NCBI RefSeq assembly: GCF_015223355.1
Contig: NZ_JADFFK010000004.1
Location: 62,001-126,000 of the forward strand
Reading direction: 5' to 3'
DNA: 64,000 nt
From: Salipiger mangrovisoli
Lineage (GTDB): Bacteria; Pseudomonadota; Alphaproteobacteria; Rhodobacterales; Rhodobacteraceae
Shown piece after piece: positions 7,862-19,190 of the stretch; within the stretch, counting starts at the first letter, position 1, and each line of letters opens with the position of its first letter. A program made the position numbers and the translations under genes. A model generated the notes under the pieces. It was not told the origin of the DNA. It made no database searches and saw only the letters and a program-made list of their open reading frames with translations.

Positions 7862-7912
7862 ATGGTACCGCCTTCCCGGTTCGAACGGGAGACCTCTTGA
7901 TCCACAATCAAG
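7862..7912. repeat. attL: 51-bp duplicate of the tRNA-His 3' end
   Basis: This stretch is identical to 19113-19163, which is the 3' two-thirds of the tRNA-His gene including the encoded CCA, T arm and anticodon arm. The copy here lacks the D arm and 5' acceptor strand, so it is not a functional tRNA. It marks the left boundary of the integrated element. Confidence 0.95.
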
Positions 7913-7960
7913 ATTCACCCCATAACAGCACATATCAAGACAAGACATCCCATGCCGATC

Positions 7961-7984
7961 AAGCCCCTTGAAACAAGGGCTTTT
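7961..7984 (+). terminator. Terminator at the left end of the element
   Basis: Stem AAGCCCCTTG / CAAGGGCTT with an AAA loop and one bulged base, followed by TTTT. It lies inside the element just after attL and would stop host read-through before the integrase. A matching hairpin lies at the right end (19061-19087). Confidence 0.65.
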
Positions 7985-8014
7985 ATGCATATGTTATGCT
8001 TAGTGCGTAACACC

Positions 8015-8059
8015 GGGGAACAGAAGCTATAGGGCTAACCGTTCCCCAATTTGTTCCCC
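8015..8059. promoter_or_regulatory. Candidate arm-type integrase sites, left end
   Basis: GGGGAAC at 8015-8021 and two direct GTTCCCC copies at 8041-8047 and 8053-8059 lie between attL and the integrase start. The same GTTCCCC pair occurs near attR (19036 and 19047). Paired short repeats on both sides of a core site are typical of tyrosine recombinase arm sites. The function is inferred. Confidence 0.5.
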
Positions 8060-8074
8060 AGAAAGGGGCGAGGG

Positions 8075-9256
8075 ATGAAGCTGACAGCAGCGACCGTTAA
8101 GAACATCAAGGCGTCTGACGCCCGGCAGGAGATACCGGACGCGATGATGCCAGGGCTTTATTTGGTGGTGCAGCCTACCGGTAAGAAAAGCTGGAAGGTG
8201 CGCTACAGGTTCGGCGGCAAACAGCCCCGCATGACCTTGGGCAAGTATCCTGACATGTCGCTAGCGGATGCACGGGATAGAGCGCGGGACGTTTTCCGCG
8301 AGGTGCAATCTGGCTTCGACCCTCAGGCACAGGTGCGGACCGCTAAGACCGAAGCTCCCACCAACTCCGTCAGTGACGCACTGGATGACTATTACAAGCG
8401 CAAGTTGGCGGCGCTGAAATCCGGCGATCAAGCCAAGGCAATGCTTGAACGTTTCATCCGGCCCGCGCTGGGAGAGCGCGTATTGACCGACATAGCGCGA
8501 GAAGACGTGCAGAGCGTCATTGACGACATCAACACCAGCGGACGCGGCGTCACTGCAAACCGCTGTCTGGCGTACACCAAGGCATTTTTGAATTGGTGCT
8601 GTGATCGCGGAAAGCTGGAAGTCAGCCCGGCTGATAGGATCAAGAAAGCAGTCAAAGAGAAGCAGCGAGATCGGCTCTTTGATGAGGATGAGATTAGGTG
8701 GTTCTGGCAGGCTTGCGATAAGGTGGGCTACCCATGGGGCGACATCGGTAAGCTACTTCTTCTTACGGGCCAACGGCGCAACGAAATCGCTCACATGGCG
8801 GACAACGAACTTCGTGGCGAAAGTCTCGCCCTGCCTAGCGGACGAACGAAGAACGGCAGAGCGCATGCAGTACCGCTCTCTGAGATGGCCTTTGACATCA
8901 TCGAAGCCCTGCCCCGCATCGAAAATCCTAGGGGCTATCTCTTCACCACCAACGGGCGCTCGCCGGTAAGTGGCTTCACCAAGGGGCAGCAACGCATCGC
9001 CAAAGAGATGGAAAAGCTTGCCGAGCGGGAAATCCCGCATTGGACATGGCACGACCTGCGCCATTGCTGCGCAACCGGCTTGGCGTTCTACGCGCGAATC
9101 GAGGTTGTAGAGAAGGCGCTAAACCATGTCAGCGGCAAGCATGGCGGCATCGCAGGCCGCTACAATCACCACGAATATTCTATCGAGATGCGAGAAGCAC
9201 TTGAGCATTGGGCAGAAAACATTCGGCGCATCACGGGGAACAACGAAGACGAATGA
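8075..9256 (+). CDS. int: Tyrosine recombinase/integrase, P4 type with N-terminal DUF4102 arm-binding domain
   Basis: A 393-residue integrase. Residues 1-85 form the arm-binding domain (LYLVVQPTGKKSWKVRYRF, LGKYPDMSLADAR). Residues 98-185 form the core-binding domain. The catalytic domain carries R234 (TGQRRNEI), K259, H326-x-x-R329 (HDLRH), H351 and Y363, so the catalytic set is complete. It would integrate and excise the element at tRNA-His. AAGGGG six bases before the ATG at 8075 fixes the start. It points inward from the truncated tRNA copy rather than lying next to the intact tRNA. Confidence 0.95.
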   Translation: MKLTAATVKNIKASDARQEIPDAMMPGLYLVVQPTGKKSWKVRYRFGGKQPRMTLGKYPDMSLADARDRARDVFREVQSGFDPQAQVRTAKTEAPTNSVSDALDDYYKRKLAALKSGDQAKAMLERFIRPALGERVLTDIAREDVQSVIDDINTSGRGVTANRCLAYTKAFLNWCCDRGKLEVSPADRIKKAVKEKQRDRLFDEDEIRWFWQACDKVGYPWGDIGKLLLLTGQRRNEIAHMADNELRGESLALPSGRTKNGRAHAVPLSEMAFDIIEALPRIENPRGYLFTTNGRSPVSGFTKGQQRIAKEMEKLAEREIPHWTWHDLRHCCATGLAFYARIEVVEKALNHVSGKHGGIAGRYNHHEYSIEMREALEHWAENIRRITGNNEDE

Positions 9257-9300
9257 CCCCTTGTTTATATAAGAAATCGCGATTGATGCGGATCCCCAAT

Positions 9301-9330
9301 TTGCGGCGTTGTTATACTTCTTGCTAAACT
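9301..9330 (+). promoter_or_regulatory. Candidate promoter of the alpA-rep operon
   Basis: TTGCGG at 9301-9306 and TAAACT at 9325-9330 are spaced by 18 bases, upstream of alpA. Just downstream is an inverted repeat TCAGAG (9338-9343) / CTCTGA (9357-9362) enclosing two GAAC copies, a possible operator. These are weak matches and only suggestive. Confidence 0.3.
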
Positions 9331-9372
9331 GTTCACATCAGAGACGAACGTGCGAACTCTGACGAAGGAAAA

Positions 9373-9406
9373 GGCCCCGAGAGCGCGCCAACGCTCTCAA
9401 GGGGCC
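9373..9406 (-). terminator. Long hairpin between int and alpA
   Basis: GGCCCCGAGAGCG pairs with CGCTCTCAAGGGGCC around a six-base loop. The plus strand has no T-run after it, but the minus strand reads TTTTCCTTC directly after the stem. It therefore looks like a terminator for transcription running against the operon. No minus-strand gene is visible nearby; a short antisense RNA is possible. Confidence 0.45.
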
Positions 9407-9469
9407 GGGTAGATACCTGCGAGGATCTGCCCCCTTCTTAGCACTGCTTGCTATGATGGGGCAACAAGA

Positions 9470-9655
9470 ATGCCGAACCTTATTACTGCGAATGACGTGT
9501 GCGCGCGCCTCGGCGGCGTCACGAAGATGACCCTTTGGCGCTATCTTAACGACGAAGAGATGGCCTTCCCCAAACCGATCTACATCCGAACCCGGCGCTA
9601 CTGGAAAGAAGCCGATCTTGCGGAATGGATTGAGGGGTGCGCCACGAATGCTTGA
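9470..9655 (+). CDS. alpA: AlpA-family transcriptional regulator
   Basis: A 61-residue protein made almost wholly of a MerR-like winged helix-turn-helix: LITANDVCARLGGVTKMTLWRYL, then FPKPIYIRTRRYWKEADLAEWIE. This is the AlpA/Prophage CP4-57 regulator pattern. In P4-like elements AlpA activates integrase or excision, and in Gram-negative PICIs it is the usual master activator. It is the only recognisable transcription regulator in the element. The next gene overlaps its 3' end by eight bases, so they are translated from one transcript. Confidence 0.9.
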   Translation: MPNLITANDVCARLGGVTKMTLWRYLNDEEMAFPKPIYIRTRRYWKEADLAEWIEGCATNA

Positions 9656-10211
9656 TCAAAAAGAAACCCCCAGCGGCGAACTGGGGGCGCAAGAGATGAA
9701 GGATAACGGTACTTACGGCTTTGATATCACAGATACCTTTGATTGCACAATAGAGGCATTTGAAGCTGTGGTTGACGCCAAGCGGGCCGAGGTCGCGAAA
9801 TGGAACGATCGCGTTGCCGCGTACCGTGAGAAGACGGATAAACCGCTGCCCCGTTCTGCCTATCGCGAACACCCCGCATTTTGCGACCTCTATGACATTT
9901 GCGCACTTACGTATGTCGGTGGCGATGAAGAGGAAATCCGGGACCATGTGGCAATTACGCTTTCAAAGGTTTCCAAGTCGGACGACGGCAGCCTTTTGTT
10001 TGATGGTCGTGGGCGTGACATGGTGAAGGCTTGGATGGACGCTGCCGTTCGCACCCGAAATGTGGCATCCGAACGCGGCGATATCGCAACCTGCGGCGCT
10101 GCGGACCAGATTGCGGAATGGGCTGGGTACCTAGATTGCCTTCTTTGGGAAGAGGGTCCGGTGGCATACATCCCTGCCGCTATCGCGATCCGCGAGGCTC
10201 AGTATGGCTGA
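9648..10211 (+). CDS. Uncharacterised satellite protein
   Basis: A 187-residue acidic soluble protein that I do not recognise. It has an alpha-helical central part (FDCTIEAFEAVVDAKRAEVAKWNDRVAAYREK) and no membrane segment or cysteine cluster. Start at the ATG 9648, with GAGGGG about ten bases upstream and an eight-base overlap with alpA; its end overlaps the RepA-like gene start by eight bases. Its place between alpA and the helicase suggests a replication or control role, which is inference from position only. Confidence 0.7.
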   Translation: MLDQKETPSGELGAQEMKDNGTYGFDITDTFDCTIEAFEAVVDAKRAEVAKWNDRVAAYREKTDKPLPRSAYREHPAFCDLYDICALTYVGGDEEEIRDHVAITLSKVSKSDDGSLLFDGRGRDMVKAWMDAAVRTRNVASERGDIATCGAADQIAEWAGYLDCLLWEEGPVAYIPAAIAIREAQYG

Positions 10212-11352
10212 GGTGGATAGCTGGCTGGCGGCTAAAGAGGTCGAAGATAAACAGAAGGAGGCGGCGAAAGTCGTCCCCCTCCAGCCCGCGCCCTACAAAG
10301 GAAAGGCGGCACCAGCGCCCCAAGCCTTTAACCTTGTCCCCATTGGCAGCTTAGAACTGACGGAACCTGAGTTTCTGATTGATGGCCTGATCGAGACGGA
10401 AACTTTGTCGCTTCTGTTTGGTGATCCCGGATGCGGCAAGACGTTCCTGGCACTGGACTTGGCGGGATGCACTGCCGCCGGGATCCCCTTCCATGGGCGT
10501 GAAGTCATGCACGGTCCGGTTGTCTATATGGCTGGTGAAGGACACAACGGCATTATCCGGCGCTTCATGGCATGGGCGAAAGAGAACGGCATTGAAGACC
10601 CTGCCAGCTTGCCGTTCTTCAAGAGCGAGCGGGCGGCGAACTTCCTTGACGGTGCCACCATGCAGGCCGTCAGTGCGGCGTGTGATGCTGTTGCGGCCTC
10701 TCACGGTCAACCCCGCCTGATCGTCGTAGATACGGTAGCCCGCAGCTTCGGCTCTGGTGATGAGAACTCCACGCAAGACATGGGGACATTCATCTGCGCT
10801 GTTGATGATCTAAGGGCGCGCTATCCCGGTGCCACCATTCTTCTAGTCCACCACACCGGACACGGGGACAAGAGCCGAGCACGTGGCGCAATGGCGCTCA
10901 AGGGTGCGCTAGACGCTGAATACCGGATTGAGAGGTCAAACGGCGTCGTTAGCATGACCGCGACAAAGATGAAGGATGCGCCAGAGCCGGAAGAGATCGG
11001 CTTTGAATTGGTGGACGTGCCGCTTGGGACGGACAAAAAAGGCAATCCGTTCGGGTCTGCCGTTTTGCGCCAAGCCGATGTGCCGACCAAGAAAGGCAAG
11101 CTGAATGCCAACCAGCGTATTGCTATCGAGAGCTTCAAGATGGCGGCACACGAAAAGGGCGTTCGCGATGATGGCGGATTCCGTGGTGTTTATCTCGAAG
11201 ACTGGCGCGAGTACTTCTATCGCAAGCATCCCGGCGAAAACACGGACAGCAAGCGTCGTGCGTTCAATCGGGAACGGCAGAACCAAGACCTCTTTGACGT
11301 TAACCATGATCTCTACATTCTTAAAGGCCATGGCGTGGAGGATTTGCTATGA
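10204..11352 (+). CDS. RepA-like AAA/RecA-fold replicative helicase
   Basis: A 382-residue ATPase. After a disordered N-terminus (1-45) comes LSLLFGDPGCGKTFLALDLAG with Walker A at 73-80, a Walker B strand LIVVDTVARSF, and HHTGHGDKSRARGAMALKGALD resembling the DnaB/RepA H4 segment. This matches the AAA_25 / RSF1010 RepA class of hexameric helicases used by plasmids and satellites for self-replication. Its C-terminal 90 residues look like a separate helical domain. It is directly followed by the GGGACA repeat cluster, a natural place for the origin it would act on. Confidence 0.85.
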   Translation: MAEVDSWLAAKEVEDKQKEAAKVVPLQPAPYKGKAAPAPQAFNLVPIGSLELTEPEFLIDGLIETETLSLLFGDPGCGKTFLALDLAGCTAAGIPFHGREVMHGPVVYMAGEGHNGIIRRFMAWAKENGIEDPASLPFFKSERAANFLDGATMQAVSAACDAVAASHGQPRLIVVDTVARSFGSGDENSTQDMGTFICAVDDLRARYPGATILLVHHTGHGDKSRARGAMALKGALDAEYRIERSNGVVSMTATKMKDAPEPEEIGFELVDVPLGTDKKGNPFGSAVLRQADVPTKKGKLNANQRIAIESFKMAAHEKGVRDDGGFRGVYLEDWREYFYRKHPGENTDSKRRAFNRERQNQDLFDVNHDLYILKGHGVEDLL

Positions 11353-11462
11353 GGGACAAGCGGGACATTTGCGGGACATGTCCCGTTGTCCCGATCGGCA
11401 GTTGTTATGCAATGTAGCGGGACAGACGGGACACACCCCTATAGGGGTGTCCCGTGTCCCGC
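11353..11462. repeat. Cluster of nine GGGACA/TGTCCC repeats, candidate satellite origin
   Basis: GGGACA starts at 11353, 11362, 11373, 11419 and 11428; TGTCCC starts at 11379, 11387, 11448 and 11455. Two perfect palindromes lie inside: CGGGACATGTCCCG (11372-11385) and an 18-bp one centred on CCCCTATAGGGG (11433-11450). The cluster fills the gap right after the helicase gene. An iteron-type replication origin is the most likely reading; an operator array or packaging site is possible. Confidence 0.6.
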
Positions 11463-11478
11463 CCATAACTGAGGAAGG

Positions 11479-11661
11479 ATGAGTATGAAGATTGGTGGAA
11501 TGATTGCATTCGGAATTGTGCGTGGCGGAAAGCTCGCAACGGTGCAGTGTGGATTTGTTCCTGCCGTTGGGCAGATTTTAGAAGAAAAGGGGGATCGGTA
11601 CAGGATTATGTCGGTCAATCCGGTCGGCGAACACTACGATCTTTTCTTGAAGAAGCTATAA
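11479..11661 (+). CDS. Small uncharacterised protein
   Basis: A 60-residue protein with a beta-rich pattern (MIAFGIVRGGKLATVQCGFVP, then GDRYRIMSVNPVGEHYDLFL). GAGGAAGG lies just before the ATG at 11479, so it is likely translated. It follows the repeat cluster and is closed by its own terminator. I do not recognise the family. The position suggests a small control or anti-host protein, but nothing in the sequence proves this. Confidence 0.6.
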   Translation: MSMKIGGMIAFGIVRGGKLATVQCGFVPAVGQILEEKGDRYRIMSVNPVGEHYDLFLKKL

Positions 11662-11672
11662 CCACCCCGATT

Positions 11673-11700
11673 AGCCCCGCCACCGTGCGGGGCTTATTAT
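11673..11700 (+). terminator. Terminator between replication and structural modules
   Basis: AGCCCCGC (11673-11680), six-base loop, GCGGGGCT (11687-11694), then TATTAT. It separates the replication genes from the head genes, which start at 11726 with their own ribosome site. Confidence 0.75.
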
Positions 11701-11725
11701 TACCAAATGATTATGAGGGTGGAAC

Positions 11726-12136
11726 ATGAGCACTAAGGGATTTGCCGCGTCTGTTGGCGCATGGACGAAGAAGGCCAAGACATTGCCGGACGAAGCGTTT
11801 CAAGAGTTTCTGAGATTGGTCTATCAAGAGCTAATGCGCGCAATGCCTGAGGTGACGGGCAATCTCAAGCGTAGTGTGCTGGTGACGGATACAGGGCTTG
11901 TGCCGGTGGATACTGACCCTGCCAAACAATACGTGGATATGACCGCCGAGAACATGGCCACCATTGCCAATATGAAGATTGGTGAGAAAGCTTATATCAG
12001 CGTGACAGCCCCCTATGCGATCAAAGAGAACTATGGCGGAGATGGTGAGTCCGGTAAGTTCTTCATTGAGATCACCGCATCCAAGTTCAAGGCATTGCAA
12101 GCCCAAGCCATTCGCAATGTGAAGGCGCGTAGCTGA
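11726..12136 (+). CDS. HK97 gp10-like neck protein (type 1)
   Basis: A 136-residue protein with features of the HK97 gp10/neck protein family: an N-terminal helical part (FLRLVYQELMRAMPEVTGNLKRSV) and a central beta part containing AYISVTAPYAIKENYGG, close to the usual apYA..hEyG signature of this family. Such proteins cap the head side of the neck and receive the tail. GAGGGTGGA precedes the ATG. It opens the structural operon and overlaps the next gene by one base. In a tail-less satellite it would contact the helper tail. Confidence 0.75.
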   Translation: MSTKGFAASVGAWTKKAKTLPDEAFQEFLRLVYQELMRAMPEVTGNLKRSVLVTDTGLVPVDTDPAKQYVDMTAENMATIANMKIGEKAYISVTAPYAIKENYGGDGESGKFFIEITASKFKALQAQAIRNVKARS

Positions 12137-12492
12137 TGGCGTTCTATGATCGTGCAAGGGCAGCGCATGGGCGTCTTATGGCGTCCTATGGGCATGGCAG
12201 CGTGACGCTGACCAAGACCGAGACAGTGCCAGGCCCGAACCCTTGGGATCCACCAACTACAGTGGAGACCGACGAAACCCTAGACGCCATTGTGAGCGGC
12301 GTGACGGAAGAGTTTGTGAATGGTAGCGGCAGCATCGTAGCTACTGACCTCAGTGTGCAGTGTGGTGTCCCCACGGACATGCCCAATGCTGGCGACCAAG
12401 TGAAGGTTGATGGCGTTGCCCGTGCTGTGCTGGCTGTGCATCCGCTGCCCGGTGCTGGTGATCCCGTTGCCGTTCGGATCATATGCCGATGA
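12136..12492 (+). CDS. Putative head-closure/connector protein
   Basis: A 118-residue protein whose ATG overlaps the stop of the gp10-like gene. It is beta-rich (GSVTLTKTETVPGPNPWDPPTTVETDETLDAIVSG; then GDQVKVDGVARAVLAVHPL), in the style of phage head-closure (Hc1) proteins, which have a TLT...DpWdpp... opening. Size and position beside the gp10-like gene support a neck role. The assignment rests on pattern and context rather than a decisive motif. Confidence 0.6.
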   Translation: MAFYDRARAAHGRLMASYGHGSVTLTKTETVPGPNPWDPPTTVETDETLDAIVSGVTEEFVNGSGSIVATDLSVQCGVPTDMPNAGDQVKVDGVARAVLAVHPLPGAGDPVAVRIICR

Positions 12493-12585
12493 CTGCATAT
12501 AAGGTCCCAATGCCCCTCGATATGGGTGAACCGGCGTACGCGGAGCGGGGTTGCGAAGTCTCTCTCAGAAAAATTCGGGGGAAAA

Positions 12586-14121
12586 ATGGCGGGTAGACCA
12601 AGTAAACAAGCCTCTTCCGCAATTGCGTTCTTCAATAAATTGCGCATCCCCGAAGGTAAAATGGCGGGGAAGCCGGTTAAACTGGCATCCTATCAAAAGC
12701 AATTCATCAAGGGCGCTCTTGCTCCCGGTATCATGGTGGGCTGCCTGTCTATTGGTCGTGGTAATGGCAAGACCGCACTTTCCGCTGGTCTCGCTCTGGC
12801 TGACGTCATGGGGGAACTGACCGACCAACCCAAGCGCGAGGTGATCCTTGCCGCGCGCAACCGTGACCAAGCGAAGATCGCCTTCAACTTCATCGTGGGC
12901 TTCGTGGAGACGCTGCCCGACCATGAGCAAGAGCTGTTCACCATCCGTCGCGGATCCAAGCTGGAGGTGGAGTATAGCGGCAATGGTGGCGGTCTCGCCC
13001 GCTGTATCGCTGCCGATGGCAAGTCTATCCTTGGCGGTGCCCCTACTCTGGCTATCCTCGATGAGCGCGCCGCTTGGGACCGCGAGAAAGGCGACAACCT
13101 AGAAAACGCCATCCTGTCCGGCCTTGGTAAACGTGACGGGCGGGCGCTTATCATTTCCACGTCCGCACCTGATGACGCCAACACCTTTTCCCGGTGGCTC
13201 GATGAACCGCCGCCCGGCTCCTACGTGCAAGAGCATCGCCCGGCGTTCGGCCTCCCTGCTGACGATCTGGAAAGCCTGCTGATCGCCAACCCCGGCTCCA
13301 AGGAAGGTATCGGCTCGACCGCCGAATGGCTGGTGTCTCAAGCCCGCCGCGCTATCGCCCGTGGTGGTTCCGCACTGTCGTCGTTCCGCAATCTCAACCG
13401 CAATGAACGGGTCTCGACGGAAGACCGCTCTATGCTGGTCACGGTGGACGAATGGCTGTCTGCCGAAGTGTCGCCGGACGAACTGCCGCCACGCGAAGGG
13501 CCGTGCGTTCTGGGTGTGGATCTGGGCGGCTCCCGTAGCATGTCCGCAGCGGCGCTGTACTGGCCCGAGACGGGCCGTCTTGAGGCTGTCGGGACGTTTC
13601 CGTGTGTGCCGTCTCTCGCCGACCGTGGGGCTTCTGACGGCGTGTCTGACCGTTATACGCAAATGCAGGATCGGGGCGAGTTGACCACTATGGGGGACAC
13701 GACCGTTCCCGTGGGCCGGTGGCTGGCCGAGGTGGTGGCGCTTGCGGATGGTCATGGGATTGCCTGCATCGTCGGGGACCGTTTCCGCCATGCTGAGTTT
13801 GTCGAGGCTATGCGGGCTGCCGGTCTCGACCGCGTGCCCTTCATATGGCGCGGATTTGGCTGGAAGGACGGCGCGGAAGATATCGAGCGCTTCCGCCGCG
13901 CGCTATTCGAGGGCAAGGTGCAAACCGTTCCTAGCCTGCTGCTGCGTAGCGCCTTCTCTGACGCTATCACGCTGGTTGACCCTGCCGGGAACCACAAGCT
14001 GGCAAAGGCGCGCTCTCTGGGCCGTATTGACGCCGCTGCGGCCTCTCTGCTGGCCGTGGCCGAGGGTGCCCGCATGGTGAACAAGCCTGCCACCAGAGCG
14101 CCGCGCTTCGCATGGGCATGA
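12586..14121 (+). CDS. terL: Phage large terminase subunit (TerL)
   Basis: A 511-residue packaging motor. The ATPase half has Walker A GRGNGKT (57-63) and Walker B LAILDERAAWDRE. The nuclease half has VLGVDLGGSRSMSAAALYW with the first acidic metal ligand, CIVGDRFRHAEF, and a final Asp in SLGRIDAAAASLLAVAEG. It translocates DNA into the satellite's own heads. I prefer the ATG at 12586 (MAGRPSK) because CGGGGG lies five bases upstream; a GTG at 12526 in frame has no such site. The end overlaps the HNH gene. No small terminase gene is obvious. Confidence 0.92.
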   Translation: MAGRPSKQASSAIAFFNKLRIPEGKMAGKPVKLASYQKQFIKGALAPGIMVGCLSIGRGNGKTALSAGLALADVMGELTDQPKREVILAARNRDQAKIAFNFIVGFVETLPDHEQELFTIRRGSKLEVEYSGNGGGLARCIAADGKSILGGAPTLAILDERAAWDREKGDNLENAILSGLGKRDGRALIISTSAPDDANTFSRWLDEPPPGSYVQEHRPAFGLPADDLESLLIANPGSKEGIGSTAEWLVSQARRAIARGGSALSSFRNLNRNERVSTEDRSMLVTVDEWLSAEVSPDELPPREGPCVLGVDLGGSRSMSAAALYWPETGRLEAVGTFPCVPSLADRGASDGVSDRYTQMQDRGELTTMGDTTVPVGRWLAEVVALADGHGIACIVGDRFRHAEFVEAMRAAGLDRVPFIWRGFGWKDGAEDIERFRRALFEGKVQTVPSLLLRSAFSDAITLVDPAGNHKLAKARSLGRIDAAAASLLAVAEGARMVNKPATRAPRFAWA

Positions 14122-14423
14122 GGTATGCCCGCCACGGTTCCGCGATCTACAAGACGGCCCGCTGGAAGGTGGTACGGAAGCAGGCGAAAGACCGTGACGA
14201 TTGGCGCTGTGTCGAATGTGGCAATAGAGGCCGTCTTGAGGTGGACCACATCAAGGCCATTCGAGACGGCGGTGCGGAATATGACCTCGATAACCTGCAA
14301 ACGCTCTGCATTGCATGCCATGCGCGAAAGACGCGCTTGGAAATGGGATTCCCCGATAAATCTCCTGAGCGGAAGGAATGGGACGCATTCCTGAAGCGGG
14401 ACCTGCCCGATTTAGAAAAGTGA
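14118..14423 (+). CDS. HNH endonuclease
   Basis: A 101-residue HNH nuclease starting in an ATGA overlap with terL (a further in-frame ATG lies at 14112). Zinc ligands C31, C34, C64 and C67 frame the beta-beta-alpha fold with LEVDHIKAIRDGG (H44), DNLQTLC (N59) and CHARKT (H68). HNH proteins next to terL in HK97-like phages are needed, with TerL and portal, for cos cleavage during packaging. This suggests cos-type packaging here. Confidence 0.9.
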   Translation: MRYARHGSAIYKTARWKVVRKQAKDRDDWRCVECGNRGRLEVDHIKAIRDGGAEYDLDNLQTLCIACHARKTRLEMGFPDKSPERKEWDAFLKRDLPDLEK

Positions 14424-14481
14424 TTATCGGCTGATATTCTTCGGTTGTCATGATGACTGTAACAATCCGAGGATTTAATTA

Positions 14482-15714
14482 ATGCTGGAATCGAAAAAGA
14501 TTTCGCTTCGTCAATCTGAAATTCGGCAGGCTCTGTCGGAACTGGCCGGGAAGGAAAACCCGACCGCCGATGAGATCCGCTCTATGGAAGAAATGGACAA
14601 GGAATATCGTTCCGCCGAGGTCCGGTTTCGTGCCGCTATGATTTCCGAAGAATCCGAGCGCCGGGAAGCTGGCGAGGAACTGGAAACCCGTTCGGACAAA
14701 GAATGGGCTGGCATGATCGACCGCTTCGAGGTCCGCCAAGTCGCGCTTGCTCTCGATGAGGGCCGTTCGCTCGATGGTGCCACCAAAGAGATTGTGGACG
14801 AACTGCGCTCCGCTGGTGGTTATCGCGGTATCCCGCTCCCCCTTGCCGCTCTGGAACAACGCGCTGGCGAGACCGTCTCGGCTGACCTGTTCTCCCCTAA
14901 GGCAACCCGCAACATCATCGGGCGCATCTTCCCGAACAGCGTTGCCGCCAAGCTGGGCGTGTCGTCGGTCAATATTCCGCAGGGGACCGCTGAATGGCCT
15001 GTTGCCACCGCTGGTGCCGTTACGGGCTGGCAGGCTGACGAACTGTCGGACGTGGGTGCAGCTTCGGCCTATCAGACCACCGAAGTCACCATGTCGCCGG
15101 ACAACACCCTTGGCGCGCAAATGGTTATTACCCGCAAGAGCCTCAAGCAAACGGGCCAAGGGCTGGAAAACGCTGTCCGCCAAGACATGAGCGCGGCAAT
15201 CGCCGTCGCCCTGGACAACGTGATTATCAACGGCACTGGTGCTGCGGGCCAGCCTCTGGGCATCGTCCCCGGCGCTGCAACCTATGGCATCACGTCCACC
15301 GATATGACCGCCGCTGCGCCTGACTGGGCTGCGTTCCGCGCCGAGATCATCGCCTTCATGGAAGCGAACGCCATTACCGACCCCTCGCAGGTCAAGCTGG
15401 CATTCCCGCCCGCTATCTGGGGTGATCTGGACGATACGCTGATTTCCGGCACTGCGGTTTCCGAACTCGACCGGATGACCAAGCATGGCGTGTCGCCCAT
15501 TCTGGCAAACCAGCTCACCGCTGGCAGCGCGATCATGACCACCACGGTTAACGGCGTTGCACCGGCCTTTGTGGGCCTCTGGGGCGCTGTCGATATGATC
15601 CGCGACCCCTACACCCGCGCAGCATCGGGACAGCTTGTCCTGACCGGCCTTGTCACTGCTGACGTGACCGTGGCGCGTGGTCTGCAAACCCGTATTCTGA
15701 CCAACTTCGGGTAA
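14482..15714 (+). CDS. HK97-fold major capsid protein
   Basis: A 410-residue protein. Residues 1-100 are a charged helical delta (scaffold) domain (KISLRQSEIRQALSELAG...). From about 105 on it has the HK97 core: GGYRGIPLPLAALE, NIIGRIFPNSVAAKLGV, TAEWPVATAGAVTGWQADE, MVITRKSLKQTGQGLENAVRQDMSAAIAVALDN, INGTGAAGQPLGIV and the final RDPYTRAASGQLVLTGLVTADVTVARG. This pattern is diagnostic of the family. Having its own capsid gene separates this element from satellites that remodel helper capsids. The protease follows directly after a four-base gap, and the delta domain is presumably its substrate. Confidence 0.95.
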   Translation: MLESKKISLRQSEIRQALSELAGKENPTADEIRSMEEMDKEYRSAEVRFRAAMISEESERREAGEELETRSDKEWAGMIDRFEVRQVALALDEGRSLDGATKEIVDELRSAGGYRGIPLPLAALEQRAGETVSADLFSPKATRNIIGRIFPNSVAAKLGVSSVNIPQGTAEWPVATAGAVTGWQADELSDVGAASAYQTTEVTMSPDNTLGAQMVITRKSLKQTGQGLENAVRQDMSAAIAVALDNVIINGTGAAGQPLGIVPGAATYGITSTDMTAAAPDWAAFRAEIIAFMEANAITDPSQVKLAFPPAIWGDLDDTLISGTAVSELDRMTKHGVSPILANQLTAGSAIMTTTVNGVAPAFVGLWGAVDMIRDPYTRAASGQLVLTGLVTADVTVARGLQTRILTNFG

Positions 15715-15718
15715 ACAC

Positions 15719-16324
15719 ATGGAAGCCCCCATTTTCAACGGCGGGCTTGAAATGCGGGCGGCGGGTGATGGTACTCGCCGCCTTCATGGCAGGTTCCCCT
15801 ATATGAACCGGGCAACGATCCATTCCGGTGGGAATGGCCGTAGACCTCAGAAAGAGCAATTCGCTCCCCATTCCTTCAACTTCGCGATTCATGACCCCGA
15901 GCGGGATATTAACCTTCTGGTGGGCCATAGCTTCGATAAGCCGCTTGCCAGCAAGAAAGCGGGAACGCTGCTGTTTAACGATACAGACGAAGCCCTGCTA
16001 TTCGAGGCAATCATTGTTCCCGAAATTCAGGAATCGACATGGTGGAAAGATTTCCTTGCCGCGTTCCTGTCTGGCCTGATGATTGGCATTTCCCCCGGCT
16101 TCCGTGTCGCGCCTCCCGAGGCCGTGGAAGAGGCCGAGACGGTGGAAGAGGAAGACCCCGAGGAAGGCAACGCGCTTATCCGCACCATCTTCGAGGCAAT
16201 CCTGTTTGAGATGAGCATCGTGACCCGTCCCGCCTATGACGGCACCGAACTGGACATGCGCCAACTCGATAGCGGGCTGATCGTCCCCAACCACAAACCG
16301 GCAGCATACAGGTGGCGCGCATGA
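15719..16324 (+). CDS. HK97 family prohead protease
   Basis: A 201-residue serine protease of the U35/herpes assemblin type. The catalytic histidine is H70 in INLLVGHSFDKPLAS, and the serine is S125 in GLMIGISPGF. RPAY near residue 187 matches the family's EiSvVtrPAy element. A glutamate-rich stretch (about 134-149) is unusual and may act in scaffolding or self-removal. It would cleave the capsid delta domain during head maturation. Its position after, not before, the capsid gene differs from HK97. The stop codon overlaps the next ATG. Confidence 0.88.
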   Translation: MEAPIFNGGLEMRAAGDGTRRLHGRFPYMNRATIHSGGNGRRPQKEQFAPHSFNFAIHDPERDINLLVGHSFDKPLASKKAGTLLFNDTDEALLFEAIIVPEIQESTWWKDFLAAFLSGLMIGISPGFRVAPPEAVEEAETVEEEDPEEGNALIRTIFEAILFEMSIVTRPAYDGTELDMRQLDSGLIVPNHKPAAYRWRA

Positions 16325-16827
16325 CCTCCCGTTACATCGAATCCGAGACCGAAGTTTCCATCACGTTCCCGGCGGCTCCTAGCGGCGTTACTGGCACTGT
16401 GCCCGAAGTGATCTGGTCCAAGCTGGAAGGGTACACAACCTGCCGCTGGTCTACCGCTGTGATTGACTACGTGGTGAACCCGCCGTGCGAGGTGCTGTGG
16501 AAGCCCTACAATTTCCCGGCCACCATCGACACGGTGAACGGGGAAGCGGCCACGGTTAACGAGTTTGGCGAGGTGACCATTTCCGAGCGGTGCATTGTTC
16601 GCTGCACCATCGGCGGGCAGCCCGTCACGGATGGCGTTGAAGAGGCTTACAAGCGCCTCGCGGACTACTACGCCGGAACCTCGCTCACGGGCGTGTCCCG
16701 CTATTCCATCGACGTTGGCGACATTAGCGAAAGCTGGTCCCGCCGCGTGGATCTTGGCGCACTGGGCAACTCTGGCGCTGCCGAACTCCTGAAGAAATAC
16801 CGCAAGGAAGGTGCCGCTCATGTTTGA
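16321..16827 (+). CDS. Putative head-tail adaptor/connector
   Basis: A 168-residue protein starting in an ATGA overlap with the protease gene. It combines a beta-rich N-terminal half (TGTVPEVIWSKLEGYTTCRWSTAVIDYVV...PATIDTV) with a helical C-terminal half (VEEAYKRLADYYAGTSL...AAELLKKYRKEG), broadly like gp6-type adaptor proteins that bind the portal. The next gene encodes the portal, which supports this. No decisive motif was seen. Confidence 0.55.
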   Translation: MTSRYIESETEVSITFPAAPSGVTGTVPEVIWSKLEGYTTCRWSTAVIDYVVNPPCEVLWKPYNFPATIDTVNGEAATVNEFGEVTISERCIVRCTIGGQPVTDGVEEAYKRLADYYAGTSLTGVSRYSIDVGDISESWSRRVDLGALGNSGAAELLKKYRKEGAAHV

Positions 16828-17878
16828 TTGGTTCAAGCGGAAGTCCGAACCCCAAGAGACCCGTTCCGTATCTGCGGCGGGCTATACCGCTCAAGTCATG
16901 TCGGCGCGCGAAGCGTATGTTTCCGGGCAGACTGGCCTTGGCGAACTTACCGCGACCGTGCAAGGCGCTGTGAGCCTCTGGGAAGGCGCTCTGTGTGCTG
17001 CGGATATCGACGGCACGTCGCTCCTGACCCGGCGCGATATGGCCCTTGCTGCCCGCTCTCTGGCGCTCCGTGGCGAGGCTGTATTCTACATCTCAGATAG
17101 CGGGCTACTGCCTGCCGCTGACTGGGAAATGTCCACCCGCAACGGCAAGCCCCGTGCGTATCGCCTTAGTATCCCCGAGACCGGCGGCGCGTATGCCGTG
17201 ACCGCTCTTGCCGCTGAAGTCCTGCACTTCGTCATTGGTGCCGATCCTGTCGCGCCTTGGTACGGCATTTCCCCGCTGCGCCGATCGACGCTTTCCGCTG
17301 ACATGCTCCACACGCTGGAAACGTCGCTGGCCGAGGTCTACGCCAACGCGCCTCTTGGCTCCCATATCGTGCCGTTCCCCGAAGCCCCTGGCACTGACCT
17401 AGAAACCCTTGCAAGCGGCTTCCGTGGGCGTCGTGGGCGCATCATGCTGCGCGAGAGTGTCAACGTCTCTGCGGCTGGTGGGGCCGCTCCTGCGCAAGAT
17501 TGGAAGCCGTCCAGCTTGTCGCCGGATATGACGGGCACCATGGCAACGGAGAACTGGAAGGCGGCAAAGGGCGCGATCCTGAATGCCTATGGCGTTTTGC
17601 CCGCTCTGGTGGCCGATAACGCACAAGGGCCGCTTATCCGCGAGGCTCAACGGCATCTCGCTCAATGGACGCTCCAACCCATTGCCATGCTCATGGCCGA
17701 GGAGATCAGCGCCAAGCTGGGCCAAACGGTCAAGCTCGACGTTATGCGACCGCTCCAAGCTTTTGATGCGGGCGGACGTGCCCGTGCCGCTGCCACCATC
17801 ATTCAAGCAATGGCGATGGCGAAAGAGGCGGGCGTGGACCCTGACGCCGCTATGAAACTGGTAGATTGGGGCGAGTGA
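16820..17878 (+). CDS. HK97-type portal protein
   Basis: A 352-residue protein with the typical short start MFDWFKRK and wing/stem/crown segments of Phage_portal: RGEAVFYISD, VLHFVIGADPVAPWYGISPLRRS, GRRGRIMLRESV, LSPDMTGTMATENWKAAKGAILNAYGVLPALV, and LIREAQRHLAQWTLQPIAMLMAEEISAKLG. The portal forms the dodecameric DNA gate of the head. AAGGAAGG eight bases before the ATG at 16820 fixes the start inside the end of the adaptor gene. It is somewhat shorter than most HK97-type portals. It sits after the capsid and protease genes, the reverse of the common order. Confidence 0.9.
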   Translation: MFDWFKRKSEPQETRSVSAAGYTAQVMSAREAYVSGQTGLGELTATVQGAVSLWEGALCAADIDGTSLLTRRDMALAARSLALRGEAVFYISDSGLLPAADWEMSTRNGKPRAYRLSIPETGGAYAVTALAAEVLHFVIGADPVAPWYGISPLRRSTLSADMLHTLETSLAEVYANAPLGSHIVPFPEAPGTDLETLASGFRGRRGRIMLRESVNVSAAGGAAPAQDWKPSSLSPDMTGTMATENWKAAKGAILNAYGVLPALVADNAQGPLIREAQRHLAQWTLQPIAMLMAEEISAKLGQTVKLDVMRPLQAFDAGGRARAAATIIQAMAMAKEAGVDPDAAMKLVDWGE

Positions 17879-18300
17879 TGGCAGGCCGCGCAAAGTACAT
17901 CATTGAAAAGCAATCGCCCCCGGTAACCTACTACTGGGGGCCAGAGGTGGACCGCGAGACCGCCCGCAGCATCGGACTGGTGCGCTTCTTCACCGGCAAA
18001 CCCTGCAAGTATGGGCATGTCGCCGAGCGGTGGGTTTCCAGTGGCACCTGTATTGAATGCGTCCTGCAACGCCACCGGACGCCGGAATATCGCGAGTACG
18101 TGCGTCCGGTGAATGCGGCTTGGCTTGAGGCGAACCCCGGCAAGGTAGACCAATACAACGAACAGCGGCGCGACCGGCGGGAGAATGAGCCCGAGGCAGC
18201 CGAGCAGATGCGGGCGGCAAGTCGGGCTTGGCACGCTGAGAAGTCCAAAGACCCGGAATGGCGGGCCAAGGAACGCGAGAGGCTGCGGAAGTATGCGTAA
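17878..18300 (+). CDS. Zinc-binding phage protein of unknown role
   Basis: A 140-residue basic protein starting in a TGATG overlap with the portal gene. The N-terminal half has a C-x3-H-x10-C-x2-C cluster (C43, H47, C58, C61) in FFTGKPCKYGHVAERWVSSGTC, a pattern I know from small uncharacterised phage proteins, often linked with HNH nucleases. The C-terminal half is highly charged and helical (EQMRAASRAWHAEKSKDPEWRAKERERLRK) and may bind nucleic acid. It could be a nuclease fragment, a DNA-binding packaging factor or the missing small terminase. None of these is shown. Confidence 0.65.
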   Translation: MAGRAKYIIEKQSPPVTYYWGPEVDRETARSIGLVRFFTGKPCKYGHVAERWVSSGTCIECVLQRHRTPEYREYVRPVNAAWLEANPGKVDQYNEQRRDRRENEPEAAEQMRAASRAWHAEKSKDPEWRAKERERLRKYA

Positions 18301-18763
18301 GGCCGTCAAACTCTCTGAAGTCGTCTGGGCGCAAAAGGTGGTGTCGGGGGAATATCCGCCTGCACCATCCGGCATGTCGCCCCATGGTGCTGACGACCTG
18401 TGGCCGCTGGTGGAGGAAAAGCTTGGCTATGGCGTGGGTAAGCGCCGGGTCCGTTACATGCTCCACGACCAAGGGGCCAAGTGCTCCAAGCCGCTGGCCT
18501 TCTACCCGCCCGAATGGTGGAACGTGGTAAGCATCGAAGAGGCTGCGCGGGTGGTCGATGACCGGGGCGAAGAGACCGGCGAATTTGTCTATCAGACCCC
18601 TAAGCCCCGCAAAGACGGTTCCGTGGCGATCCGTCTAGGCCGTGTGACGGTGATAGAGGCTGAGATTGATGGCCCCGAGGTAGGCATCCCCGAGGCCGTG
18701 CGTTACGCGCTTACGTGGGCTGAGAAGCAGCCTAGGAGCGCGAGGGGTAGGACCCTTACTTAA
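18293..18763 (+). CDS. Uncharacterised satellite protein at the end of the structural operon
   Basis: A 156-residue protein whose ATG overlaps the end of the zinc protein gene by eight bases; GAGAGG is suitably placed upstream. It has a helical N-terminus (VKLSEVVWAQKVVSGEYPP), a possible helix-turn-helix-like stretch around DDLWPLVEEKLGYGVGKRRVRYML, and a beta-rich C-terminal part. I do not recognise it. As the last gene of the packaging cluster it is one candidate for a divergent small terminase. The end meets the antisense small gene head-on with an eight-base overlap. Confidence 0.6.
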   Translation: MRKAVKLSEVVWAQKVVSGEYPPAPSGMSPHGADDLWPLVEEKLGYGVGKRRVRYMLHDQGAKCSKPLAFYPPEWWNVVSIEEAARVVDDRGEETGEFVYQTPKPRKDGSVAIRLGRVTVIEAEIDGPEVGIPEAVRYALTWAEKQPRSARGRTLT

Positions 18764-18935
18764 AGCTGTTCCCGTTGATAAGTGCTCCCTTCAGCGCCTT
18801 GGCGCACGCATCGACAAGTTTCAGAAACTCCCCAGCGTCTTGAATTTTCGGGCTGGTACCCTTCGAGTCGTACCAAATGTTTTTAGCCATATCGTGCGCT
18901 GTGACGGCCAAGCCCTTGTCGGAATCGCTACTCAT
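18756..18935 (-). CDS. 59-residue antisense protein at the right end of the satellite
   Basis: On the minus strand an ATG at 18935 is preceded by AGAGGAAG at good spacing and opens a 59-codon frame. The product begins MSSDSDKGLAVTAHDMAKNI and ends ALKGALINGNSFK. It is helical and soluble by eye, with no cysteine cluster. It is the only gene in the element on this strand and lies between the structural operon and attR, where satellites and prophages often carry cargo or immunity genes. Family and function are unknown to me. Confidence 0.6.
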   Translation of the reverse strand: MSSDSDKGLAVTAHDMAKNIWYDSKGTSPKIQDAGEFLKLVDACAKALKGALINGNSFK

Positions 18936-19035
18936 TTCACTTCCTCTTTCTATAGGTCCGCGAACGGTAGCAGATGGCAGGAATCGGGCAAGATGGTCTG
19001 ACGCGAGTTCGCATCACGCGCTATGTAAGGCCATT

Positions 19036-19053
19036 GTTCCCCCGGCGTTCCCC
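19036..19053. promoter_or_regulatory. Candidate arm-type integrase sites, right end
   Basis: Two GTTCCCC copies at 19036-19042 and 19047-19053 mirror the pair at 8041 and 8053 near attL. The first parts also happen to read GTTC-N7-GTTC, the alphaproteobacterial LexA box, but the spacer is GC-rich and no gene start is close. Otherwise 18936-19112 holds only the terminator below. Confidence 0.45.
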
Positions 19054-19060
19054 AAAAACC

Positions 19061-19087
19061 AAAAGCCCCTAGCGATAGGGGCTTTAA
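19061..19087. terminator. Terminator-like hairpin at the right end of the element
   Basis: AAAAGCCCCTA - gcga - TAGGGGCTTT is a perfect stem with A/T tails on both sides, so it can act on both strands. With the left-end hairpin it insulates the element from host transcription. Confidence 0.75.
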
Positions 19088-19112
19088 CTTACGCATAAGT
19101 CATTGATTTATA

Positions 19113-19163
19113 ATGGTACCGCCTTCCCGGTTCGAACGGGAGACCTCTTGATCCACAATCAAG
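19113..19163. repeat. attR: 51-bp repeat inside tRNA-His
   Basis: Identical to 7862-7912. Here the repeat is continuous with the tRNA 5' half, so integration rebuilt an intact tRNA gene on this side. Confidence 0.95.
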
Positions 19164-19190
19164 CGCTCTAACCTACTGAGCTAAGGCGGC
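19114..19190 (-). tRNA. tRNA-His (GTG)
   Basis: A 77-nt cloverleaf with an encoded CCA. Acceptor GCCGCCT pairs with AGGCGGT, so position 1-72 is G-U; the discriminator is A73 and there is no encoded G-1. This is the unusual alphaproteobacterial tRNA-His type, in contrast to the G-1/C73 form elsewhere. The anticodon arm CTTGA-TTGTGGA-TCAAG gives GTG. The 3' part is the attachment site of the satellite. Confidence 0.95.

Follow-up and report, generated by a model that had tools for sequence, protein, structure and literature searches.

The DNA analysed here, hereafter called the window, is a stretch of 64,000 nucleotides from Salipiger mangrovisoli (contig NZ_JADFFK010000004.1, positions 62,001 to 126,000). 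It contains a chromosomal island at a tRNA-His gene, and the phage-type head genes of this island and its probable way of life are the subject of this study. An island of 11.25 kb bounded by 51-bp repeats had been proposed from the letters of the sequence, and the present analysis agrees with that proposal. The direct repeats at 7862-7912 and 19113-19163 are 100% identical and lie 11,251 bp apart from start to start. Four congeners (L219-L222; genomes G011, G009, G010 and G005) were found to have an empty site, with a single 51-bp copy that is 100% identical, an intact tRNA-His and both island flanks adjoining the site (left 87-89%, right 85-87% identity); no match to the island was found within the ~4.5 kb examined around it. 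Three more congeners (L223-L225) have the site once at 90-94%, with the right flank present and the left flank unmatched. The GC content per kb is 0.52-0.64 within the island, against 0.62-0.72 in the rest of the window. The existence of the island is confirmed, and its borders are exactly defined. The proteins of the window were annotated with Pfam and PHROGs, and the features of the island are as follows:

7862-7912, no strand: attL, 51-bp direct repeat, remnant of the 3' part of tRNA-His; single copy in four congeners
8075-9256, + strand: tyrosine integrase (Phage_integrase, Arm-DNA-bind_3; phrog_1, E 5e-65)
9470-9655, + strand: AlpA-like HTH_17 protein, excisionase or regulator (HTH_17 above cut-off; phrog_66 excisionase, E 9.5e-8)
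9696-10211, + strand: 171-aa protein with no Pfam or PHROG match; one relative, in L011
10204-11352, + strand: RepA-like replicative helicase (AAA_25; PF13481, E 3.6e-36)
11479-11661, + strand: small protein, possible head-closure fragment (phrog_161 only, E 0.0099)
11726-12136, + strand: neck1 or tail-completion protein (phrog_169, E 1.1e-10)
12136-12492, + strand: head closure Hc1 (phrog_161, E 3.5e-11)
12526-14121, + strand: terminase large subunit, TerL (TerL_ATPase, TerL_nuclease; phrog_9, E 1.2e-57)
14112-14423, + strand: HNH endonuclease of the packaging module (PF01844, E 1.1e-11)
14482-15714, + strand: HK97-fold major capsid protein (Phage_capsid, PF05065, E 2.2e-15)
15719-16324, + strand: prohead protease S78 (Peptidase_S78, PF04586, E 2.4e-13)
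16312-16827, + strand: predicted head-tail adaptor, family 'conn' (AlphaFold model, VIA structure matches)
16811-17878, + strand: portal protein (Phage_portal, PF04860, E 8.7e-14)
17866-18300, + strand: endonuclease VII-like small protein (phrog_1081, E 1.2e-15; phrog_1035 endonuclease VII, E 7.5e-4)
18293-18763, + strand: putative candidate small terminase; the longer frame 18185-18760 is without family match; one relative, in L009, 64%
18756-18935, - strand: 59-aa protein, an open reading frame (ORF) of no family, with relatives by profile in 3 other loci
19113-19163, no strand: attR, 51-bp direct repeat within tRNA-His
19114-19190, - strand: tRNA-His, the integration site, left intact (ARAGORN, Rfam)

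The integrase, AlpA, RepA-like helicase, terL, HNH, capsid, protease, portal and neck genes named in the original prediction were all recovered by Pfam and PHROGs. Absence of tail, lysis and lysogeny-repressor genes had also been claimed, and among the 16 proteins scanned no tail, lysis or repressor family was significant in Pfam or PHROGs; a sub-threshold LacI match of the AlpA-like protein was the sole repressor-type signal. The same protein matched the Phage_AlpA model at 15.4 bits, under its cut-off of 21. The neck genes sit upstream of terL. The best phage relative of the helicase among the matches listed is in Roseobacter phage CRP-406 (44% identity along 71% of the helicase), while the neck1 protein shows 28-29% identity to Rhizobium/Sinorhizobium phages, the closure protein 30-35% to Salicola, Rhizobium and Synechococcus phages, and TerL about 30% to HK022-type phages.

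Relatives were collected by scans with the capsid or its alignment. The first of these gave 11 loci; 196 relatives were then obtained from genome_contigs and at least 569 from viral_contigs, of which the best 80 were kept in each case, and profiles made from the window genes were used to search the ORFs of 185 sequences. All five core genes are present in 149 loci, and in 145 of these they follow the order terL-HNH-capsid-protease-portal on a single strand. Of the four exceptions, L019, L151 and L167 have this order cut elsewhere, as in a circle, and look circularly permuted, although joining of their ends did not prove closure; in L028 a single ORF holds both HNH and capsid. For attachment sites 84 loci were considered, 22 of which were too near a contig end, and the remaining 62, including the window, were examined for a repeat of at least 15 bp that overlaps a tRNA and has an integrase inside. 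Such a repeat was present in 46 loci and lacking in the other 16. Markov-shuffled flanks gave only 0-1 of 62 in 20 runs, and chance repeats were rejected as the cause of these calls. The 46 att-delimited elements occupy 11 tRNA types and measure 9,588-11,731 bp, with a mean of 10,360 bp and a coefficient of variation of 4.3%; they represent 45 distinct elements, because L020 and L102 are the same element.

A second integrase lies outside or beside the element in L021 (5293-6414) and also in L054, L078, L110 and L118, perhaps through tandem use of one att site. Two family members on different contigs of one genome were recorded in Paracoccus sediminis (L030/L033), Pontibaca salina (L027/L040), Paracoccus sphaerophysae (L046/L097) and Roseovarius sp. 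SP300 (L059/L061).

At the whole-genome level, a capsid at E <= 1e-60 was found in 36 of 345 genomes of the host's family (Rhodobacteraceae), in 2 of 385 genomes of the class sample and in 5 of 398 of the phylum sample, all five belonging to the same class; the window's own genome is counted in each of the three samples. Beyond that genome, one of the 19 congeners listed (G002) carries the family. Where the records name a host, it is mostly Paracoccus, a roseobacter or another member of the Rhodobacteraceae, together with some Rhizobiales, Hyphomonas, Ponticaulis and Altericroceibacterium. Paracoccus denitrificans DSM 413 (L038) and Ruegeria pomeroyi SZCCDBG043 (L065) are among the carriers of relatives. 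Two members (L060 and L104) are on contigs of metagenome-assembled genomes titled Oceanospirillaceae and Halioglobus (Gammaproteobacteria), which may reflect a host jump or misbinning. Among 50,697 phage records, 37 match the capsid, all at less than 60% identity; the 20 matches listed reach 34%, and none of the 37 covers over 80% of the query. No viral contig listed with a capsid identity of at least 44% is longer than 18.3 kb. Two plasmid records matched the capsid at E <= 1e-10; the replicon of one, with 55% identity, measures 1.58 Mb.

Two findings in relatives had been named in the original prediction as evidence of decay, namely tail and lysis genes adjoining the island and damaged head genes. 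Both were looked for, and neither outcome refuted the prediction. The 46 elements are closed units of 9.6-11.7 kb, and by ORF length terL, HNH, capsid and protease are intact in 46 of 46 and portal in 45 of 46, the sole failure being L037 with its short portal ORF; the test is a coarse one, because some HNH and capsid calls were made on merged ORFs. Pairwise dN/dS between the window and L009 was 0.061 for TerL, 0.067 for protease, 0.054 for portal and 0.115 for capsid. The search for tail and lysis genes in the 46 elements started from 239 unlabelled ORFs of at least 80 aa, from which 19 opposite-strand ones inside the head block were removed, and the ORFs were clustered to 153 representatives; the scan covered 144 of these and set nine aside. 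None of the 23 Pfam families found is of tail or lysis type, and neither is any of the 25 of 73 PHROGs families listed (replication, partition, Arc, head closure and unknown); a tiny holin or lysis protein under 80 aa could be missed by these scans. The only unlabelled ORF longer than 430 aa is a primase, so the tape measure of a long tail does not fit in the elements.

The protein at 16312-16827 gave no useful family match, and its AlphaFold model (pLDDT 80.6, from a 59-row alignment) was compared with known structures. The first 12 VIA rows are neck or adaptor chains or YqbG. The best is the RcGTA neck chain 6te8_B (Z 9.5, 138 residues aligned, root-mean-square deviation 3.5, 14% identity), and subsequent rows belong to Milano, 7-7-1, Mycofy1, DT57C/T5, YqbG and phage 812. 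Scores above Z 8 are confined to the RcGTA rows (Z 9.0-9.5). Row 13 is an archaeal virus tail chain over 68 residues (Z 4.8), and mostly enzymes come after it. Foldseek alone gave no match for the model at E <= 0.001, with an RcGTA chain at E 0.057 in the first row. A second adaptor family (phrog_442), told apart from this one by profile, precedes terL in 26 of the 46 complete elements, while the remaining 20 carry the window's family, which in 19 cases lies between capsid and portal. Each element has exactly one of the two, and none has both. Over all loci, in which the same element was sometimes counted twice, the phrog_442 family was counted 88 times and the window's family 70 times, with zero overlap. 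On account of the VIA matches, the operon slot and the mutual exclusion with the other adaptor family, we call the protein a putative head-tail adaptor, an identity that was absent from the original prediction.

The genes around the head core were found to be exchanged in other respects too. A quick tree built from TerL, capsid and portal requires no fewer than five changes of adaptor type (shuffled mean 15) and 14 changes of integrase side. An AlpA-like gene was seen in 11 of the 15 elements with a 5' integrase and in none of the 31 others (11 of 46 overall), and profiles detected a closure gene, of one family or the other, in 25 of 46. Conservation among nine close elements is limited to the head block and adaptor, and a search of these nine for a shared non-coding packaging site gave no run of at least 20 invariant columns. 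In L010 a TerL of 52% stands next to a capsid of 88%, a mismatch which points to recombination. Across the family the head core is fixed, and interface genes, replication genes and integrase are exchanged. The head core would accordingly be the inherited unit, and it is suggested that the interface is retuned to the tails of different helpers as they become available, with head capacity setting element size.

Comparison with known systems was made first with a locus of Escherichia coli O157:H7 EDL933 (NZ_CP008957, from the integrase at 1680329 to about 1694760), which we take to be EcCIEDL933, the prototype of the capsid-forming phage-inducible chromosomal islands (cf-PICIs). Integrase, helix-turn-helix regulator, replication gene, HK97 capsid, protease, portal, closure, connector, HNH and TerL are common to both, and no tail is annotated in either. 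The succession capsid, protease, portal is also shared. However, the order in EcCIEDL933 is capsid-protease-portal-closure-connector-HNH-TerS-TerL, whereas that of the island is neck-closure-TerL-HNH-capsid-protease-adaptor-portal, and no P27 small terminase (TerS) was seen in the island. By hhalign the proteins of the two are remotely related for TerL (probability 98.5), protease (97.5) and HNH (96.0), and the signals are weak for capsid (3.9, E 0.011) and portal (26.2, E 7e-4); the latter signal leaves room for a remote kinship of the portals. BLASTP gave E 0.16 for capsid and E 0.77 for portal, neither of which is significant. A capsid tree with phages, gene transfer agent (GTA) and EcCIEDL933 has branches of 4-5 changes per site, with the satellites not on one side of a branch (2 changes), and such branch lengths leave the relations and the root unresolved; the family was not grouped with EcCIEDL933 in this quick tree of very long branches.

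The original prediction had assigned to the island the gene set of the cf-PICIs. As regards content this stands, in that a head set, TerL and HNH, an AlpA-type regulator and an integrase with att and empty site are present and tail and lysis genes were not recognised; as regards gene order the island differs from EcCIEDL933, the one prototype compared. The further claim of a distinct lineage agrees with the other gene order and with the lack of a significant BLASTP match of capsid or portal, as judged against that same prototype only. In one report the cf-PICIs are described as having genes for capsid, protease, portal, connectors, terminases and HNH and as needing a helper only for tails (PMC10690885). 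Their average size is 14 kb (PMC10803314), against a mean of 10.4 kb for the present family, and the hosts here are alphaproteobacteria.

Other systems resemble the island less. The cf-PISP elements of Vibrio crassostreae have their own head and packaging genes and no tail, and chimeric particles with helper tails were proposed for them; they are episomal, with ParA/RepA and no integrase, and are confined to Vibrio (PMC13230959), whereas the island is chromosomal. The Streptomyces phage satellites MulchRoom and MiniFlayer have, as does the island, their own capsid, portal and terminase genes, but they are actinobacterial, with virulent helpers, direct terminal repeats and no primase, and MiniFlayer has its own tail fibre (PMC10690885). 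Roseophages CRP-811 and CRP-831 and Rhodobacter phage RcCronus are among the nearest isolated-phage capsids (28-34% over 58-73% of the query); unlike the island they are complete tailed phages of 31-36 kb, with capsids of about 620-975 aa versus 410. Four loci (L180, L181, L183 and L184) have capsids related at 34-36% which group with roseophage CRP-811 in a quick tree, and two of the four have capsid frames over 860 aa. Searches of the open-access literature gave no report of such elements in these hosts.

Taken together, it is probable that the island is an intact satellite which builds its own small HK97-type head, packages its own DNA of ~10-11 kb and relies on a helper phage for its tails and for lysis. 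Excision of the element at the 51-bp site would be the work of the integrase, aided by the AlpA-like protein in the role of excisionase, and its replication would be started by the RepA-like helicase. Capsid, protease and portal would form a small prohead to be filled by TerL and HNH; the adaptor, closure and neck1 proteins would then cap the head and offer an interface to the long tail of a helper, which would also lyse the cell. In this reading tails would be stolen from a helper, which may be a roseophage as originally proposed. Whether or not the island belongs to the cf-PICIs by descent, in our best reading it works like one and is an alphaproteobacterial capsid-forming satellite, smaller and differently ordered.

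Several points weigh against this reading. No helper was identified. The genome contains a ~36-kb prophage beside tRNA-Leu (contig C11, about 553,700-590,500; L228-L230), which carries an integrase, a phrog_15 TerL, a tape measure and tail proteins. The only other PF05065 capsid found in the genome is in a cluster on the same contig (about 510,000-524,000; L023, L024), which we presume from its gene order to be RcGTA-like. Either could be a source of tails; nothing ties them to the island, and BLASTP of the island proteins against the ORFs of the prophage stretch gave nothing significant (best E 0.036). A small terminase, which the original prediction had not claimed either, was not recognised in the window by Pfam or PHROGs; the one hit to a family of that name fell on the HNH protein, and packaging specificity is therefore unexplained. 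The neck1 profile matched only 7 of 185 sequences and the closure gene was not found by profile in 21 of 46 elements. The loci were selected by capsid similarity, which favours intact capsids. Finally, three relatives look extrachromosomal: L109 (1-10114) has a unit of 9,970 bp with an exact terminal repeat of 144 bp, L029 (1-10206; Paracoccus binzhouensis) one of 10,118 bp with an exact repeat of 88 bp, and L133 (1-10761) a repeat of 121 bp that is 99.2% identical. No integrase match was obtained in these three, and they may therefore be an episomal branch and not excised islands, comparable as episomal relatives to the Vibrio cf-PISP.

Among the alternatives, docking on the tails of the host's GTA in place of phage tails is very unlikely. 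It draws on the RcGTA-like cluster of C11, which has a Phage-tail_3 match, on the RcGTA neck chains as best fold matches of the adaptor model and on the occurrence of the family mainly within the host's family. An RcGTA-type GTA and the island, which are present in the same genome, share an HK97-family capsid and a structurally similar adaptor. But a shared adaptor fold is no proof of docking, one conserved GTA tail would favour one interface whereas adaptor and closure genes vary among members, and the family extends to Rhizobiales, Hyphomonas and Altericroceibacterium, some of which may themselves possess GTAs. The island itself is not of GTA type: a GTA is a cluster of head and tail genes that is free of integrase and att and packages host DNA. 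Tail genes are present in the C11 cluster, and the ORFs read next to it showed no integrase, while the island has integrase and att and no tail.

That the island is a decayed HK97-type prophage from which deletions removed the tail and lysis genes is very unlikely. Phage-type head genes at a tRNA att site with no tail genes, and the short portal ORF of L037, are what such decay would leave. Yet the same tail-less unit of uniform size recurs in the 46 att-delimited elements at 11 tRNA types, with intact genes, low dN/dS and the shared order of five core genes, and separate deletions would hardly yield an identical gene set and size each time; moreover, no phage record among those listed has a capsid above 34%. 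That the island is a tail-less virus or vesicle-like carrier, leaving and entering cells unaided, we regard as highly improbable: the near-complete head gene set and the missing helper would suit it, but adaptor, closure and neck1, whose known role is to join a tail, are encoded, and no lysis or entry gene was found. A head operon maintained by the host for capsid-based delivery or DNA storage is hardly credible, since beyond the retention of intact genes nothing speaks for it, and the integrase, att sites, empty sites in congeners, patchy occurrence (36 of 345 genomes and, besides the own genome, 1 of 19 congeners listed) and 14 changes of integrase side on the tree are those of a mobile element.

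For the family as a whole, we tentatively consider it a real possibility, a little short of an even chance, that these satellites are an independent radiation in Rhodobacteraceae and neighbouring alphaproteobacterial orders, with heads of ~10.4 kb, which switches helpers by swapping the adaptor on the same head and includes some integrase-less circles of ~10 kb. HK97 has a T=7 head of about 40 kb, and scaled down by volume a T=3 head would hold about 11 kb and a T=4 head 17 kb. By this simple scaling the head of the satellite may be a T=3 shell, smaller than the T=4 heads of other satellites. Satellites that make their own heads and borrow tails have been reported chiefly from enterobacteria, Pasteurella and Gram-positives. 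If the satellite reading is true, the presence of this family in roughly a tenth of the genomes sampled from the host's family would show that the life style has emerged or spread much further afield, marine roseobacters included, and many ~10-kb 'incomplete prophages' in these hosts would be functional transfer agents. The either/or choice of adaptor would be a natural experiment on the matching of a phage head to a foreign tail, and the tight element size a test of the minimum size of an HK97-type head.

Some of the proteins outside the head block were also followed. Pattern scans of viral_contigs with the queries 18296-18760 and 9696-10208 found no relatives; two viral contigs nonetheless carry one relative each, L009 of the candidate small terminase (18293-18763) and L011 of the 171-aa protein (9696-10211). 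Another protein family, c2, is present in 34 loci; among the 46 elements it was seen in 16 of the 31 with a 3' integrase and in no others. It was folded as a candidate small terminase: the best VIA row of its model is a MerR-type regulator (Z 5.7), no TerS is among the matches listed, and the viral structure library gave no match at E <= 0.001. Possible satellite cargo was seen in two of the 144 scanned ORFs, one matching the candidate defence family HEC-09 (E 1.7e-47) and one weakly matching an Arr-type rifampin ADP-ribosyltransferase model (E 3.7e-5).

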